Assembly (NCBI RefSeq): GCF_004795895.1
Contig: NZ_CP039250.1
Location: 1,364,001-1,428,000 of the forward strand
DNA from: Sphingopyxis sp. PAMC25046
Lineage (GTDB): Bacteria; Pseudomonadota; Alphaproteobacteria; Sphingomonadales; Sphingomonadaceae
Direction: 5' to 3'
Length of the DNA stretch: 64,000 nt
Under the pieces are notes generated by a model. The model was not told the DNA's origin, made no database searches, and worked only from the letters and a program-made list of their open reading frames with translations. The position numbers were made by a program, and so were the translations under genes. Positions 1 through 13,168 of this stretch are shown piece by piece; within the stretch, counting starts at the first letter, position 1, and each line of letters starts with the position of its first letter.

Positions 1-41
1 AGCGCGGCGCCTTCGCAATCGAAGCTCAACTGATGCCGCAT
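1..41 (-). CDS. Exosortase A system-associated hydrolase 1 (5' end only)
   Basis: Only the first 13 codons lie in the window; the gene runs off the left edge. On the minus strand an ATG at 41 opens a frame reading MRHQLSFDCEGAA, which resembles the amino-terminal strand of the exosortase-A-associated alpha/beta hydrolase of the TIGR03100 type. It starts inside the last codons of the upstream hydrolase 2 gene (16 nt overlap), the usual order in XrtA loci. The family is presumed to act on an acyl or ester substrate, but its reaction is not known. With so little sequence the call rests on context and the amino-terminal motif. Confidence 0.6.
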   Translation of the reverse strand, partial: MRHQLSFDCEGAA

Positions 42-694
42 GACGTGCTCCATGCGGCGATGTCGGACGCGATCGCCGCCGCCATCGCGGCGTCCTCGCC
101 GGGTTCGGCGCGCAGCCAGAGCGGTGTGCCCGCGACACCCTCGGCGCCCAGCGCGACGCTGCGCAGCGGCTCGACCGGCTGCGCTTCGGCGGCACCGAGC
201 TGGGCGATCATCGCGGGCGACAGCGCGTTGCCGGCGAGGAGCAGCGGAGCGGTTTCCGCCGCGGTCTGCAGGCTTTCGAGCGACGAGGTGAGCCCCGCCT
301 CGCGGTCGGCGACGACCCGCGCGCGCATCAGTGTCCTGAGCAGCGAAGCGCCTCCTACGGGGGCAAGGCGCCACCATGCCGCGACGCCCGCGCGATGATC
401 GATCAGCGCGCCGCCGCGCACCGAAGCGGCGATAACCGGGCCGTCGATGGCGGCCGCAGCCTCGGCGAGAGCGTCCTGCCAGCGCGTCAGGTCGGCCTCG
501 ACCAGGGGGACGATGCTTTCATTCTGACCCGGCAAGTCGGGCAACACCGCCGCGAACCCATGTGCCGCCAGCACGCGCATGGCGAGCACAAGCGTCCGGC
601 GCGTGCGGTTCGCTTCCTCGAACAGCGGCGGAACGATCAGGACGGTGGCGCGCGGCGCGCCGGCGGGGTTGATACGCAGCAGATGTTCGATCAT
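26..694 (-). CDS. Exosortase A system-associated hydrolase 2
   Basis: A 222-residue alpha/beta-hydrolase-like protein. The opening strand and oxyanion region (VLIVPPLFEEANRTRR, about residues 18-33) are typical of the TIGR03101 family found in XrtA/PEP-CTERM loci. At the expected nucleophile elbow the sequence reads AASVRGGAL, not a clean Gly-x-Ser-x-Gly, so esterase activity is uncertain. The gene lies 16 nt downstream of the acyl carrier protein gene and overlaps the next hydrolase, implying one leftward operon of acetyltransferase, ACP, hydrolase 2 and hydrolase 1. The substrate is unknown; a role in releasing or editing an ACP-bound intermediate is inference. Confidence 0.78.
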   Translation of the reverse strand: MIEHLLRINPAGAPRATVLIVPPLFEEANRTRRTLVLAMRVLAAHGFAAVLPDLPGQNESIVPLVEADLTRWQDALAEAAAAIDGPVIAASVRGGALIDHRAGVAAWWRLAPVGGASLLRTLMRARVVADREAGLTSSLESLQTAAETAPLLLAGNALSPAMIAQLGAAEAQPVEPLRSVALGAEGVAGTPLWLRAEPGEDAAMAAAIASDIAAWSTSCGIS

Positions 695-710
695 GCGCGC
701 ATCGGCTGGT

Positions 711-989
711 TCAGCCGTTCACCTTGCGCCACGAGAAGGCGAGAAGATTGCCATAGGTTTCAAAGATTTCCCCATCGACCTCATCATCGTCGATCACGAT
801 GCCGAGCCGGTCCTCCATCTCGGTGAGCACCGTCGCGACCGCCATCGAATCGAATTCGGGCAGCTCGCCGAACAGCCCGCTGTCGTCGGTCAGCGCGGCC
901 GCACGCGCTTCGCCGAGCCCGAGGACATCGGCGAGCAGGGCGCGAAGGGTGACATCGACGCCGGTCGCGTCAGGGGCGGGTTCGGTCAC
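711..989 (-). CDS. Acyl carrier protein of the XrtA locus
   Basis: A 92-residue acidic helical protein with an ACP signature. The sequence EFDSMAV puts the 4'-phosphopantetheine serine at residue 48, followed by an acidic recognition helix (EMEDRLGI) and a DDDEVD stretch. I place the start at the GTG at 989, because it overlaps the acetyltransferase stop codon as GTGA; a longer frame opens at 1079 but lies inside the upstream gene. The closeness of an AMP-forming ligase, a PLP decarboxylase and hydrolases suggests that this carrier holds an activated amino or acyl group during modification of the polysaccharide or of a small molecule. That role is inferred. Confidence 0.82.
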   Translation of the reverse strand: MTEPAPDATGVDVTLRALLADVLGLGEARAAALTDDSGLFGELPEFDSMAVATVLTEMEDRLGIVIDDDEVDGEIFETYGNLLAFSWRKVNG

Positions 990-1993
990 TTTTCTTTCCT
1001 CAGCAGCGAACGGGCAAATGCCTTCAACGCCGGTCCCCATGCCGCGACACGCGACGGATTGAAAGCCTCGATACGCCACAGCCGCTCGTGCCGGTTCATC
1101 CAGTCGCGCTTATACGCGTCGTTGCCGGTGCCGAAATCGACGCGTTTCACCCCATCGACCTCGATGACATAACGGAAGAGCGCCGCCGAGAGCAATGTGC
1201 CGGGCGAGGCCTTCAGGCTGTCCTCGACATGTGCGAGCTTGTGGATGAAGGCGGTGCCGTCCTCGACCGTCCAGAACTGCGCCGCGACCGGAGCTCCCTC
1301 GATTCGTGCGATTCCCATGCGAAAGGTGCCGCGCGCGCTTTCCATTTCGGCGAAGGCACGGAGCAGCGCGGGGTCGCCTTCTTCGGGCTTCCAGCTCGCG
1401 GCGTAGATTTGTTCATAGGCCGCCCAGCTTCCGGGATCGAAAGTGGTGAGCAGTTCGACCGCGACGATCCCCTTTTTCGCCTTGCGCTGCACGGTGCTGC
1501 GCAGCGCCCCGGGGCGGCTTGCCCACCAGCGATCATGGTCCAGATCGGACAGATCGAGCCAGTGGCGGTCGCCGAAGGGGTTGGCTTTCACCCACCAGCC
1601 GGCGTCGCGAAGCGCCGACGCGATGCCCGCCCGGTCTTCGTCGCGAACCGGATAGAGCGTCAACCGCGCCGCTTGGGAGCGCAGATCGCGAAACAGCGCG
1701 AGCAGCGCGGCGCGATGGTCGCTTCCGCCCGAAAAAAGCGGCCGGATCGCAAAGCTGTACCAGTTTGTCAGCCCCGCCAGATGCCCAGGTCTCTCGATGC
1801 GTAGCGGCAGTCGCGCTGCGGTGCCGTTCGCCGAACCGCGTGCATCGAGCCGGCCTTGCCCGGCAAAACCATGCGCCGCGAGCAGGTCGAACCATTCGGC
1901 CCGGTCGAAAGGCGCCGCGAAGCCCGCGGCGCGCGCCGCATCATCGTTAGCCTGATCTTCACCGTTCCCTTGCATCGTGTGGCCCTCTATCAC
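986..1993 (-). CDS. GNAT/BioF2-like acetyltransferase of the XrtA locus
   Basis: A 335-residue protein with the fold signs of the BioF2-like acetyltransferase family (Acetyltransf_6, related to FemAB). Signs include the central LSDLDHDRWWASRPGALRST region and a carboxy-terminal FIHKLAHVEDSLKASPGTLL segment followed by DFGTGNDAYKRDW, typical of the acyl-donor half of this fold. It probably transfers an acyl or aminoacyl group from a carrier, and the ACP is the next gene with a GTGA overlap. Two starts are possible: a GTG at 1993 with AGGAG just upstream, or an ATG at 1975. Only about 17-35 nt separate it from the divergent ligase gene. The substrate is unknown. Confidence 0.78.
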   Translation of the reverse strand: MIEGHTMQGNGEDQANDDAARAAGFAAPFDRAEWFDLLAAHGFAGQGRLDARGSANGTAARLPLRIERPGHLAGLTNWYSFAIRPLFSGGSDHRAALLALFRDLRSQAARLTLYPVRDEDRAGIASALRDAGWWVKANPFGDRHWLDLSDLDHDRWWASRPGALRSTVQRKAKKGIVAVELLTTFDPGSWAAYEQIYAASWKPEEGDPALLRAFAEMESARGTFRMGIARIEGAPVAAQFWTVEDGTAFIHKLAHVEDSLKASPGTLLSAALFRYVIEVDGVKRVDFGTGNDAYKRDWMNRHERLWRIEAFNPSRVAAWGPALKAFARSLLRKEK

Positions 1994-2010
1994 CTCACTC
2001 CTAACAGCCG

Positions 2011-3543
2011 ATGACCAAAGCCGAAAACCCGCCTTCGTTTCCGATCGACCATCTCGCCCTTCGCGGCGCGGCGGATGCGGCTGCGCTGCTAATCAACGAT
2101 AAGGTCACGACCTTCGCCGAACTCGACGCCGGGGTCGGCCGGCTCGCCGCGTGGCTGCTCGAACAGGCGGGCGGGCCGGGCGAGCGCGTCGCGAGCTGGA
2201 GCGCGAAGACAAGGGCGGCCTGCCTGATGCCGCTCGCCGCGGCGCGCGCGGGGCTGATCCATGTGCCGGTCAACCCGCTGCTCAAGGGGCCGCAGGTCGC
2301 GCATATCCTCGCCGACAGCGGGGCGAAGCTGCTCGTCACCAATGGCGCGCGCGCCGACACGCTGGGCGATGGACGTCCCGAAGACTGCGCGCTCCAGGAT
2401 CTGAAAATCGCCGAAGAGGTGGTCGATTCGGGGGGGCAGGGCCTGCCGCCCTCGATTGCCGAGCCCGACGACCTTGCCGCCATCCTCTACACCAGCGGTT
2501 CGACCGGGCGGCCGAAGGGTGTGATGCTGAGCCATGCGAACCTGTGGCTCGGCGCCGAAAGCGTCGCCTCTTATCTCAAGCTATCTCCCTACGACCGGGT
2601 GGTCGGCGTGTTGCCGCTCAGTTTCGACTATGGTCAGAATCAGTTGCTTTCGAGCTGGTATGCGGGCGCGGCGGTCGCCCCGCTCGACTATCTCACCGCG
2701 CGTGACGTCGTGAAGGCAGTCGCACGGCACGGGATCACGACGCTCGCGGGGGTGCCTCCACTCTGGGTGCAACTCGTCGAGGCCGAATGGCCGGTCGAAA
2801 CGGCTGGCTTGCTCCGGCGCCTGACCAACAGCGGGGGTGCGCTGACACCGTCGCTGATCGACGCGATGCGCCGGACCTTCCCGGGCGCCGACATCTACCC
2901 GATGTACGGGCTGACCGAGGCGTTTCGTTCAACCTTTCTCGACCCCGCGCTCGTTGCCGATCATCCGACCTCGATGGGCCGCGCGATCCCGCACGCCGAA
3001 ATTCTCGTCTGCCGCCCCGACGGCAGCGTCACCGCCGACGACGAGCCGGGCGAACTCGTCCATGCCGGTCCGCTGGTAGCGCAGGGCTATTGGCGCGACG
3101 AAGAACGAACCGCTCAGCGCTTCAAGCCCGCGCCCGCCGCCTCGCGCCATGGCGGCACCGCGGTCTGGTCGGGCGACACCGTCCGCCGCGACGCCGACGG
3201 CCTGCTCTATTTCGTCGGCCGCGACGATGCGATGATCAAGACCGCGGGCAATCGCGTCAGCCCGACCGAGGTCGAGGATGTCGCGATCGCGTCGGGGCTG
3301 ATCTATGAAGCGGTCGCCTTCGGGGTGCCCGACGCGCGGCTCGGCGGCGCGATCGTCCTGATCGTGCGCGGCAGGGACGACGGCGCCGACGAAGAGGTGC
3401 TCGCGGCCCACCTCCGGCAGAATCTTCCCAATTTTATGCAGCCGCAGGCCATCGAATGGCGGAGTGAACTGCCGCGCAATCCGAACGGCAAGCTCGATCG
3501 CGTCGCAATCGCTGCGGGCTGGACGCAAGGAGAGTTGGCATGA
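2011..3543 (+). CDS. AMP-dependent acyl-CoA ligase, exosortase A-associated
   Basis: A 510-residue member of the ANL (AMP-forming) superfamily, TIGR03098-like. The P-loop-like motif YTSGSTGRPKG is at residues 160-170. The adenylate-binding YPMYGLTEAF, the hinge YFVGRDDAMIKTAGNRVSP and the carboxy-terminal catalytic lysine motif (NPNGKLDR) are all present, so the enzyme looks active. It should adenylate a carboxylic or amino acid and pass it to CoA or to the nearby ACP. The stop overlaps the start of the PLP decarboxylase by 4 nt (ATGA), which ties the two activities together. The substrate cannot be read from the sequence. Confidence 0.88.
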   Translation: MTKAENPPSFPIDHLALRGAADAAALLINDKVTTFAELDAGVGRLAAWLLEQAGGPGERVASWSAKTRAACLMPLAAARAGLIHVPVNPLLKGPQVAHILADSGAKLLVTNGARADTLGDGRPEDCALQDLKIAEEVVDSGGQGLPPSIAEPDDLAAILYTSGSTGRPKGVMLSHANLWLGAESVASYLKLSPYDRVVGVLPLSFDYGQNQLLSSWYAGAAVAPLDYLTARDVVKAVARHGITTLAGVPPLWVQLVEAEWPVETAGLLRRLTNSGGALTPSLIDAMRRTFPGADIYPMYGLTEAFRSTFLDPALVADHPTSMGRAIPHAEILVCRPDGSVTADDEPGELVHAGPLVAQGYWRDEERTAQRFKPAPAASRHGGTAVWSGDTVRRDADGLLYFVGRDDAMIKTAGNRVSPTEVEDVAIASGLIYEAVAFGVPDARLGGAIVLIVRGRDDGADEEVLAAHLRQNLPNFMQPQAIEWRSELPRNPNGKLDRVAIAAGWTQGELA

Positions 3544-4769
3544 AACCGCACGGTCCGGTTCCGCCCGGCTTCAAGGCCGATGCCGGCGGCATGTTGCTGA
3601 TCGGCGGCGACCGCGCTGCGGCGCTCGCCGACGTCGCGGGCGACACGCCGCTTTTTGTCTATGATAGTGCGATGCTCGCCGCGCGCGTCGCCGAATGGCG
3701 CGCCGCGATGCCAGCCGAGGTGCAGCTTCATTATGCGATGAAGGCGAACCCCTATGCGCCGCTGCTCGCCTTCATAGCGGAGCTCGTCGATGGGTTCGAC
3801 GTGGCATCGGGCGGCGAACTCAAGGCCGCACTGGCGAGCCGCATGGCGGCGGTGGACATCAGCTTCGCGGGTCCCGGCAAGCGCGACCGCGAGCTGGAGG
3901 CGGCGATCAGCGCGGGCGCGACGCTCAATCTGGAATCGGCGGGCGAAGCGGCACGCGCGCTGTCGATCGCGGACCATCGGGGTGTGACGCCAAGACTCGC
4001 GGTGCGCGTCAATCCCGACTTCGATCTCAAGGGGTCGGGGATGAAGATGGGTGGCGGCGCCAAGCCTTTCGGGGTCGATGCTGCCGAGGTTCCGACGCTC
4101 GTCCGCCGCCTGATCGATGCCGGAGCCGACTGGCGCGGCTTTCATATCTTTGCGGGATCGCAGGCGCTGGGCGCGGCCGCGATCGCCGAGACGCAGGCGC
4201 AGACCGTCGCGCTCGCCGCGCGGCTGGCGAATGAAATCGGCGTGACGCCGCCGCTCGTCAACCTCGGTGGTGGGATGGGCGTGCCCTATTTTCCTGGCGA
4301 TACGGCGGTCGATGCAGCAGCGGTGGGGCATGCGCTCGGCGAAACGCTAGGCGTGCGCGACCCGGTCCTCGCGGACAGCCGTTTCGCGATGGAACTCGGC
4401 CGCTGGCTCGTCGCCGAGGCAGGGGTCTATCTGACGCGCGTCGTTGATCGCAAGGTCAGCCACGGTGAGACCTTCCTCGTCACCGACGGCGGCCTCCACC
4501 ACCAGCTCGCCGCGAGCGGCAATTTCGGCACCGTGATCCGCCGCAACTATCCGATCGCGGTCGCCAATGCCTTCGGCCGCGAGCCCGCCGAAACCGTGTC
4601 GGTCGTCGGCTGCCTTTGCACCCCGCTCGACCGGCTCGGCGATCAGGTCGCGCTCCCGCGCGCCGAGGTTGGTGACCTGATCGCGATCTTTCAGGCGGGC
4701 GCCTATGGCGCGAGCGCGAGCCCGGCGGCGTTTCTGGGGCAGGGGCCCGCGCGCGAAATGCTGGTCTGA
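3540..4769 (+). CDS. PLP-dependent decarboxylase, exosortase A system-associated
   Basis: A 409-residue fold-type III PLP decarboxylase related to diaminopimelate/ornithine decarboxylases (LysA-like), TIGR03099 type. HYAMKANPYAP carries the Schiff-base lysine at residue 68. GFDVASGGEL, the glycine-rich phosphate loop (NLGGGMGVPY) and CLCTPLDRL (expected active-site cysteine region) follow in the usual order. It most likely decarboxylates an amino acid or aminoacyl intermediate supplied by the overlapping AMP ligase. It is unlikely to be the housekeeping lysA because of its place inside the XrtA operon. Its true substrate has not been established as far as I know. Confidence 0.88.
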   Translation: MKPHGPVPPGFKADAGGMLLIGGDRAAALADVAGDTPLFVYDSAMLAARVAEWRAAMPAEVQLHYAMKANPYAPLLAFIAELVDGFDVASGGELKAALASRMAAVDISFAGPGKRDRELEAAISAGATLNLESAGEAARALSIADHRGVTPRLAVRVNPDFDLKGSGMKMGGGAKPFGVDAAEVPTLVRRLIDAGADWRGFHIFAGSQALGAAAIAETQAQTVALAARLANEIGVTPPLVNLGGGMGVPYFPGDTAVDAAAVGHALGETLGVRDPVLADSRFAMELGRWLVAEAGVYLTRVVDRKVSHGETFLVTDGGLHHQLAASGNFGTVIRRNYPIAVANAFGREPAETVSVVGCLCTPLDRLGDQVALPRAEVGDLIAIFQAGAYGASASPAAFLGQGPAREMLV

Positions 4770-11243: not shown

Positions 11244-12104
11244 ATGCAGAACGGCCTGTCGGTCGATGTCGAGGACTGGTTCCAGGTCGGCGCCTTTGAG
11301 CGCACGATCGACCGTGACGACTGGCCGACGCTCGAATGCCGCGTCGAGGCGAATTGCGACGCGGTGCTGCAGATTTTTTCCGATGCCGGCGCGACCGGGA
11401 CCTTCTTTACCTTGGGCTGGGTCGCCGAACGCTATCCCGCGCTGATCAAGCGCATCGTCGCGGCGGGGCACGAGCTTGCCAGCCATGGTTATGATCACAA
11501 ACGCGTGTTCAACATGACCGCAGACGAATTCGCCGCCGACCTCAGGAAGACGCAGGCGATCCTCGAGAACATCGGCGGTGCCGCGGTGCGTGGCTATCGC
11601 GCGCCGAGCTTCTCGGTCGACACGCGCACCCCTTGGGCGCACGGGGTGCTCGCCGAACAAGGCTATGCCTATTCGTCGAGCGTCGCGCCCGTCGTCCACG
11701 ACCATTATGGCTGGCCCGAAAGCCCACGCCACGCGTGGCGGCCGTTTTCCGACAGCGAGCTTGTCGAATGGCCGGTCACGACCGCGCGTGTTGCGGGACG
11801 CACCTTGGCGGCGGGCGGCGGCGGCTTCATGCGAATGCTGCCCTATGGCTTCACGCGCTGGGCGATCGCGCGGATGAATGCCGAGGGGCACCCCGCTATC
11901 CTCTATTTCCACCCGTGGGAAATCGATCCCGGCCAGCCGCGCGTCGCCGACGCTCCGGTCAAATCGAAAATCCGCCATTACAGCGGCTTGTCGGCGATGG
12001 CTGGCAAACTCAAGAAACTGCTCGCCGACTTCGAATGGACGCGCGCCGATGCCTTGCTTCCCGCCCAGCAGCAACGCGCACAGCCGTGGCGCGCCGCGGC
12101 GTGA
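11244..12104 (+). CDS. XrtA-system polysaccharide deacetylase
   Basis: A 286-residue NodB-type carbohydrate esterase 4 protein of the TIGR03006 subgroup. The opening SVDVEDWFQVGAFE carries the catalytic base aspartates. ELASHGYDHKRVF supplies the two metal-binding histidines, GYRAPSFSVD is motif 3 and LYFHPWEIDP is a late conserved block. No signal peptide is evident, as is usual for this subgroup. It should remove acetyl groups from the nascent polysaccharide. Its stop overlaps the FemAB-like start as GTGA, so the two are translationally coupled. Confidence 0.9.
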   Translation: MQNGLSVDVEDWFQVGAFERTIDRDDWPTLECRVEANCDAVLQIFSDAGATGTFFTLGWVAERYPALIKRIVAAGHELASHGYDHKRVFNMTADEFAADLRKTQAILENIGGAAVRGYRAPSFSVDTRTPWAHGVLAEQGYAYSSSVAPVVHDHYGWPESPRHAWRPFSDSELVEWPVTTARVAGRTLAAGGGGFMRMLPYGFTRWAIARMNAEGHPAILYFHPWEIDPGQPRVADAPVKSKIRHYSGLSAMAGKLKKLLADFEWTRADALLPAQQQRAQPWRAAA

Positions 12105-13168
12105 ACGCGCCGGTGCTTGCCGCGAACGACAGCTTTTCGGGCGCGCCGCTATCCGACGCGGGCGAATGGGACGCCTATGTCGCCGCGCACCCGGAGGCGA
12201 CCCCCTTCCACAGCCGCGCGTGGTGCGAGGCGATCACCAAGGCGACCGGGCATCGCTGCCACCTCGTCACAGCGCGCGACGCGGCGGGCGCGCTGACGGG
12301 CATATTGCCGCTCCACCATATCCGCTCGCCGCTCTTTGGACAGGCGCTCGTCGGTAGCGGCTTCGCGGTCGGCGGCGGCATATTGGCCGACGATCCCGCC
12401 GTCGCCGCGACGCTGGCGCAAGGCGCGGCGGCGATGGCGGCATCGCTCGGCGTGCCGTCGGTCGAACTGCGCGGCGGCGCGCAGCCCGAAGGCGAGAGCT
12501 GGAGGCGGGAAGAGGGCATTTATGCGGGCTTCGCGCGCGACCTTGCGGCCGACGACGGCGCCGAACTCCTCGCCATCCCGCGCAAGCAGCGCGCCGAGGT
12601 TCGCAAAGTGCTTGAAAGCGGGCTGACGGTCACCACGGGAAGCGACGCCGCCGAACGTTGCGACCACTACCGCATTTATGCGACCAGTGTTCGTAACCTC
12701 GGAACGCCGGTCTTTCCAAAGGCACTGTTCGACGCCGTGCTCGATGCGTTCGGCGGCGAGGCGGATATCCTGACGGTGCGCGAGGGCGGTCGCCCCGTCG
12801 CGAGTGTGCTCAGTCTCTACTGGCGCGGCACCGTCATGCCCTATTGGGGCGGCGGGACCGCCGACGCGCGGCGGTTGCGCGCCAACGAACTCATGTATTT
12901 CGCGCTGATGCGCCATGCGCGCGAACGGGGCTGCACGCGCTTCGATTTCGGCCGCTCGAAACTCGGCACGGGCCCCTTCGCCTATAAGAAGAATTGGGGC
13001 TTCGAACCGCAGCCGCTCGTCTACGCGCGCTGGCTCGCGCCGGGAGAGGCGCCGCGCGATACCAATCCGAACAGCACCCGGTATCGGCTGCAGGTCGACC
13101 TCTGGAAGAAGCTGCCGCTATGGGCGGCGAACCGGATCGGCCCACTGATTGCGCGCGGGCTCGGCTAG
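12101..13168 (+). CDS. FemAB-like protein of the XrtA/PEP-CTERM system
   Basis: A 355-residue FemAB/GNAT-fold protein, TIGR03019-like. A GTG at 12101 overlaps the deacetylase stop, and this start removes the 150-codon extension of a longer frame. Motifs include ATPFHSRAWCEAI near residue 30, AIPRKQRAEVRK at about residue 158 and a carboxy-terminal FDFGRSKLGTGPFAYKKNWGF typical of the family. Family members transfer amino acids or acyl groups onto peptidoglycan or glycans; in XrtA loci the acceptor is unknown. It may use the aminoacyl group prepared by the ligase/ACP module. The TAG stop shares a base with the next GTG start. Confidence 0.85.
   Translation: MNAPVLAANDSFSGAPLSDAGEWDAYVAAHPEATPFHSRAWCEAITKATGHRCHLVTARDAAGALTGILPLHHIRSPLFGQALVGSGFAVGGGILADDPAVAATLAQGAAAMAASLGVPSVELRGGAQPEGESWRREEGIYAGFARDLAADDGAELLAIPRKQRAEVRKVLESGLTVTTGSDAAERCDHYRIYATSVRNLGTPVFPKALFDAVLDAFGGEADILTVREGGRPVASVLSLYWRGTVMPYWGGGTADARRLRANELMYFALMRHARERGCTRFDFGRSKLGTGPFAYKKNWGFEPQPLVYARWLAPGEAPRDTNPNSTRYRLQVDLWKKLPLWAANRIGPLIARGLG

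Follow-up and report, generated by a model that had tools for sequence, protein, structure and literature searches.

Gene organization and conserved core

The DNA analysed here, referred to as the window, is a 64,000-nucleotide stretch of Sphingopyxis sp. PAMC25046 (NZ_CP039250.1; G000:C1:1364001-1428000 in our numbering of genomes, G, and fetched loci, L) within a 4.5-Mb single-contig genome. Its first 4,769 nucleotides carry two divergent gene clusters in an exosortase A (XrtA) locus. On the plus strand, a gene for an AMP-forming ligase (2011..3543) is followed by one for a fold-III pyridoxal phosphate (PLP) decarboxylase (3540..4769), and the two share an ATGA, confirming the 4-nt overlap given in a first-pass annotation of this DNA. 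The ligase scored 642.9 bits against TIGR03098 (cut-off 592.35) and the decarboxylase 556.3 bits against TIGR03099 (cut-off 478.45); the closest named relatives of the decarboxylase come from Sphingopyxis. The divergent operon on the minus strand encodes a tandem-GCN5-related N-acetyltransferase (GNAT) protein (986..1993), an acyl carrier protein (ACP; 711..989), hydr2 (26..694) and hydr1. The likely ACP start is the GTG at 989; through a shared GTGA, the ACP gene and the GNAT stop overlap by 4 nt. The 92-residue product exceeds the PF00550 cut-off (27.5 versus 20.8 bits), and its phosphopantetheine Ser48, in the motif E-F-D-S-M, is invariant in 89/89 rows, in agreement with the site assigned earlier. 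Both of the alpha/beta hydrolases that had been placed in this operon are there, but only hydr2 is whole in the window; hydr1 (G000:C1:1363220-1364053; L004:11220-12053, minus strand) runs off its edge after the first codons (1..53). An XrtA polysaccharide export gene (TIGR03027) lies 3′ of the decarboxylase, and genes for an XrtA polysaccharide deacetylase (TIGR03006) and a FemAB protein (TIGR03019) lie farther on.

We compared this arrangement with that of 80 fetched loci, the best 80 of 593. Neighbors were counted in the 61 loci in which the decarboxylase frame was flanked by 5.5 kb on its upstream and 2.5 kb on its downstream side. The ligase was present in 61/61, the ACP in 60, hydr1 and hydr2 in 55 each, the export gene in 52 and the GNAT in 48. 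Each frame received one label, which explains the ACPs missed in L051 and L119; the latter shares a frame stretch with the GNAT and was recovered by the ACP profile. When the nearest in-frame start codon was taken, 74 of the 78 ligase-bearing loci of this first set had one yielding the 4-nt ligase-decarboxylase overlap. A second set comprised 40 further stretches, 18 above and 22 below the TIGR03099 cut-off. Among the 18, the profile found an ACP nearby in every case (17 by phmmer with the window ACP alone), and a ligase was nearby in 17. The exception was G102, in which ligase (G102:C1:1103960-1105495) and decarboxylase (G102:C1:3015562-3016755) are both kept though 1.9 Mb apart. Among the 22, ligase and ACP were both found in 12, three of these ACP matches being weak (E 1e-5 to 2e-4), and neither in 10. 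The training rows of the ACP profile include L115-L118, L120, L128, L130, L133, L136, L141 and L143; PF00550 independently confirmed the ACPs of L133, L136, L141 and L143. From these counts we conclude that the ligase, ACP and decarboxylase constitute the core of the module, whereas the GNAT, hydr1 and hydr2 are add-ons.

The families TIGR03098, TIGR03099, TIGR03100 and TIGR03101 are already named as exosortase A system-associated. In the literature that we searched, which was mostly open-access, we found neither a pathway or settled function for these XrtA-adjacent enzymes nor a description of aminoacyl-ACP chemistry in XrtA or glycan loci.

Ligase, decarboxylase and their characterized relatives

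When the pocket stretch of the ligase was used as query, the top solved match was VinN of vicenistatin biosynthesis (63.8 bits; best non-VinN chain, 29.6). Residues Asp206, Tyr207, Ser274 and Arg306 of the window ligase match VinN Asp230, position 231, Ser299 and Arg331, Met298 belongs to the same pocket, and the TE-x-x-R spacing, which reflects a short beta13-beta14 loop, is the same in both proteins. In VinN, D230 holds the amino group, S299 and R331 are proposed to hold the alpha-carboxylate, and the loop is shortened (PMC7756342, PMC11253843; these and all papers below are cited for the portions drawn on). Across 109 aligned family rows, which count the window twice, the D230 and R331 positions were D and R in 109/109, the S299 position was S in 95, T in 13 and A in 1, and the complete D-Y-S-M-R pattern occurred in 94. 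The genome's own AMP-binding proteins served as control; a motif filter dropped 5 of 19, and the 14 kept include the module ligase itself. None of the remaining 13 had both D and R, and one had R without D. The ligase of butirosin biosynthesis belongs to another family than the module ligase. From the pocket residues and their spacing we predict that the enzyme acts on an acidic amino acid, with aspartate or a close analogue the likeliest, and that it adenylates the carboxylate of the side chain. The earlier proposal of ACP loading by the ligase is thus retained by homology, with the correction that the loaded acid would most likely be an amino acid attached through its side-chain carboxylate.

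The nearest solved relative of the decarboxylase was BtrK, both with the window protein as query (231.3 bits; runner-up 126.7) and with the family profile (364; next 245.3). In our tree, BtrK grouped with 40 rows of the decarboxylase family and its near relatives (split support 85/84), 36 of them from loci with an observed ligase; nine LysA rows from the sampled genomes and the diaminopimelate decarboxylase (DapDC) 2p3e formed a separate group. The motif that begins with the C-terminal Cys is CT in 49/49 non-LysA rows and CE in 10/10 LysA/DapDC rows. The window protein, with Lys68 as presumed PLP lysine, has CTPLD and lacks the CE(S/T)xD motif of LysA. By sequence, then, the decarboxylase is closer to BtrK than to DapDC/LysA, and homology supports the earlier suggestion that it acts on an ACP-bound intermediate.

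Three antibiotic-type pathways provide precedents. VinN/VinL/VinO of vicenistatin share with the module the ligase pocket residues and loop spacing, the loading of a side-chain carboxylate onto a stand-alone ACP and subsequent on-carrier decarboxylation; they differ in using 3-methyl-Asp to make a polyketide starter unit, and VinO is likened to the decarboxylase by function only (PMC11284099, PMC11253843). For bolagladin of Burkholderia gladioli, BolO/BolC/BolN are proposed to convert Asp to isoaspartyl-ACP and then to beta-alanyl-ACP; deletion of bolN abolishes the product, and beta-alanine does not rescue it (PMC7756342). This set also combines a VinN-like ligase that retains D230 and S299/R331, a free-standing ACP and a BtrK-like decarboxylase, BolO and BolN being likened here by description rather than by sequence. 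Unlike the module, it feeds a nonribosomal peptide synthetase (NRPS) lipopeptide rather than a glycan locus, and the portions of the paper drawn on name neither hydr1/hydr2 nor a FemX-like GNAT (PMC7756342). BtrI/BtrK of butirosin likewise include a fold-III PLP enzyme that decarboxylates an acidic amino acid while it is bound to a carrier (PMC7857480; PDB 2j66, 7ru7), and the product ends on an aminoglycoside, but the amino acid is glutamate instead of aspartate (PMC7857480). The first-pass annotation had put the module forward as a candidate for an undescribed pathway. The chemistry is known from vicenistatin, butirosin and bolagladin, whereas its deployment at XrtA or glycan loci does appear to be new.

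Transferase candidates and hydrolase-fold proteins

The GNAT protein had been described as a BioF2-like acetyltransferase. It does match Acetyltransf_6 (57.6 bits, cut-off 22), but in the predicted structure its two GNAT domains take the FemX arrangement, and it models as a FemX-like aminoacyltransferase. Its profile gave no match among PDB sequences at E 0.01. FemX/FemA and BD-12 Orf11-type aminoacyltransferases also have two GNAT domains; their conserved Lys is matched in the window protein, which has a conserved Tyr294-Lys295, by motif only, and their donor is an aminoacyl-tRNA (PMC12945691), whereas an aminoacyl-ACP is proposed for the module GNAT. One known acceptor of FemX/Orf11-type enzymes, streptothrisamine, bears an amino sugar (PMC12945691). 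The GNAT was rejected as a universal transferase for the module. In a genome search that left out L075 and L076, 10 of 11 Sphingomonas-type genomes had no match above 39 bits (positive control L047, 457 bits), the exception being the genome of L085 (393 bits).

hydr1 passes TIGR03100 (226.7 bits, cut-off 168.45) and has an alpha/beta-hydrolase triad, Cys110-Asp223-His257, each residue of which occurs in 78/79 rows. The aminoacyl shuttles CmaE and SyrC resemble hydr1 in pairing the alpha/beta-hydrolase fold with a Cys nucleophile, and we know of no hydr2 counterpart in their systems. They transfer aminoacyl groups between carrier proteins (PMC8748450), and we liken them to hydr1 without a sequence comparison.

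hydr2 scored 50.9 bits against TIGR03101 (hydr2_PEP), below the cut-off of 202.75; its homologue in L115, likewise between ACP and hydr1, reached 303.3 bits. An Arg (Arg93 in the window protein) replaces the nucleophile in 77/77 rows. The predicted structure (pLDDT 94.2) has the alpha/beta-hydrolase fold, with the elbow between strand 87-92 and helix 93-97. An hhalign comparison of hydr2 with hydr1 (probability 53) did not align the two elbows, and the placement of the Arg comes from the GxRxG of L115 and L130 together with the predicted structure. Because Arg93 sits at the nucleophile elbow, hydr2 is probably not a hydrolase.

The two proteins had been thought to edit mis-loaded carrier. We reject this role for hydr2, in which the nucleophile is missing, and consider it unlikely for hydr1, which is fused to hydr2 in L130 and is absent from lineages that retain the core. 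A genome-wide search found no hydr1 match above 26 bits in 10/10 genomes with a hydr1-less locus (positive control, the genome of L060, 350 bits); the absence of hydr2 comes from locus counts only. The fusion, L130:5944-7746 (+), is a single 600-residue open reading frame with Arg and Cys at the respective elbows, and a GNAT of the family directly precedes it.

Association with exosortase A and a proposed pathway

In the sample of 299 genomes of the phylum, XrtA exceeded its cut-off in 20 and the decarboxylase was present in 19. Both occurred in 17 genomes, XrtA alone in 3 and the decarboxylase alone in 2 (Fisher p 9e-23, with shared ancestry ignored here and below). Outside the window's own family the corresponding numbers were 5, 3 and 1 (p 2e-8). 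The first-pass annotation had named absence of the module from most XrtA loci as grounds for refutation; counted by genome rather than by locus, the decarboxylase was found in 17/20, which does not refute the proposal. The three remaining XrtA genomes (G267, G015 and G007) had neither decarboxylase nor ligase, and the two remaining decarboxylase genomes (G107 and G155) had no XrtA at E 1e-40. A weaker XrtA-like match occurred in another 17 genomes; among these, a ligase match at E 1e-80 was confined to G010 and G185 and lay below the ligase cut-off in both, indicating that the link is to XrtA proper. Seven loci of the first set have the module without export, deacetylase or FemAB genes in the fetched stretch; six of these seven genomes retain XrtA above cut-off, and that of L091 has none. 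Among six other genomes checked, XrtA was above cut-off in those of L048, L058 and L060, reached only about 128 bits in those of L071 and L075, and was not found in that of L089.

FemAB (12104-13168) had been suggested as an alternative transfer partner, which now seems doubtful. It was found in 14/14 XrtA genomes searched (six further XrtA genomes lay outside that search), including the module-less G267, G015 and G007, the G007 match of 259.8 bits being just below cut-off. It was not found in G107, G155 or G185, each of which has the module or a relative of it with lower scores. A role as the module's own transferase is weakened because FemAB tracks XrtA rather than the module. Seven Sphingobium-type loci (L057, L058, L070, L104, L109, L110 and L111) have two FemAB-like frames and lack hydr1 and hydr2; hydr1 was also missing from the rest of their genomes.

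Glycan genes accompany the module in other settings as well. L118:7342-12177 (+) encodes the ligase, decarboxylase and ACP. After them come genes for a glycosyltransferase, a polysaccharide deacetylase and a protein with a below-cut-off O-antigen-ligase match, and the L118 genome has no XrtA at E 1e-40 and no FemAB at E 1e-20. The module of L144 sits among sugar transferases and an export locus. L136:7716-13263 (+) contains the ligase-decarboxylase pair, a B12-binding radical S-adenosylmethionine protein, the ACP and an aminoglycoside N-acetyltransferase-like protein. Thauera MZ1T, cited here for its polysaccharide and not for the module, makes an amino-sugar-containing polysaccharide and requires its exopolysaccharide deacetylase for flocculation (PMC4784049). 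We tentatively favor a glycan acceptor on the basis of these three contexts and the Thauera deacetylase. The XrtA-locus deacetylase (11244..12104, plus strand; TIGR03006 401.6 bits, cut-off 276.2) may be what provides the polysaccharide with free amines.

We consider it reasonably probable that the module is an aminoacyl-carrier-protein pathway that decorates a surface glycan or its lipid precursor. The ligase would take an acidic amino acid, for which L-aspartate is the likeliest candidate, adenylate its side-chain carboxylate and load it onto the ACP to give isoaspartyl-S-ACP. The PLP decarboxylase would then strip the free alpha-carboxylate on the carrier to give beta-alanyl-S-ACP. Finally, an acyltransferase would attach the beta-aminoacyl group to the exopolysaccharide or a precursor, at an amine or a hydroxyl; the enzyme could be the FemX-like GNAT where present and, elsewhere, possibly the Cys-type hydr1 with hydr2 as its partner. 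For the first two steps the inference draws on conserved residues and on relatives studied by experiment, for the third and its acceptor only on fold and gene context. The substrate prediction makes a testable pathway of families named solely by association, and suggests that aminoacyl-ACP chemistry known from antibiotics may serve surface-glycan decoration.

Several observations weigh against this model. A whole-ligase query placed linear gramicidin synthetase A (250.4 bits, two stretches summed) above VinN (178.8), and the bulky residue at VinN 231 (F231) is Ala in 6/109 rows, L118 included. The BtrK branch is long (2.06), with placement support below the 95/80 star. SbnH (6knh), which to our knowledge uses no carrier, also has the CT motif. 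Because of SbnH we rejected the motif as a mark of carrier binding; by sequence it argues against DapDC-type recognition without proving that a carrier is bound. The top Foldseek rank for the GNAT was the lipid-aminoacylating MprF, and tandem GNATs that use acetyl-CoA matched as well, with lower Z (15.4-15.8). The FemX-type enzymes that we know of use aminoacyl-tRNA rather than aminoacyl-ACP. As the GNAT is missing from 13/61 loci and hydr1/hydr2 from 6/61, no single transferase is universal. The distant ligase-decarboxylase-ACP sets L133 and L143 had no glycan gene among those scanned.

Glutamate, which would give 4-aminobutyrate, is also a possible substrate. In this variant, gamma-glutamyl-S-ACP would be converted to 4-aminobutyryl-S-ACP as in butirosin, and BtrK, to which the decarboxylase is closest, does act on carrier-bound Glu. 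However, the ligase pocket (D, aromatic, S and R with equal spacing) copies that of VinN, a binder of 3-methyl-Asp and Asp, and the BtrK-like BolN is proposed to act on Asp (PMC7756342). We therefore regard glutamate as unlikely.

A different product would be expected if the module made a small secreted metabolite resembling a siderophore or lipopeptide and merely neighbored polysaccharide genes. The three known cases of this chemistry, as described in the sources cited above, do yield small molecules, an export pump or a sulfotransferase is the neighbor at some distant loci, and the module can leave the XrtA locus. Even so, the detached module stays in XrtA genomes in 6/7 cases, the XrtA-less copy in L118 lies in a glycan locus, the window's genome has only three PP-binding matches, all in short frames, and a scan limited to eight window proteins found no NRPS or polyketide synthase among them; a metabolite is in our judgment quite unlikely. 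That the enzymes are unlinked, a fatty-acyl ligase and a diaminopimelate or polyamine decarboxylase together by chance, is highly improbable. NCBIfam names TIGR03098 an acyl-CoA ligase, and the decarboxylase has LysA as its second-ranking family. Yet ligase and decarboxylase are paired in 61/61 loci with a 4-nt overlap and are both retained in G102 despite their separation, the LysA-type rows fall outside the clade with a different motif, and the pocket differs from those of the other ligases examined.

The decoration model can be extended in a direction that we hold only tentatively and consider rather unlikely. The FemX-fold transferase would use beta-aminoacyl-ACP to put beta-alanyl groups on deacetylase-exposed amino sugars, giving an amine-decorated exopolysaccharide; in its boldest form, this amine would be one acceptor for XrtA in joining PEP-CTERM proteins, in the way that sortase A uses the glycine bridge built by FemXAB. 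A module-made amine cannot be the sole XrtA acceptor, because 3/20 XrtA genomes lack the decarboxylase and ligase and 2/19 decarboxylase genomes lack XrtA.

In L143:7444-11412 (-), a sulfotransferase gene lies between the ligase and the decarboxylase, and the ACP gene adjoins that of the decarboxylase.

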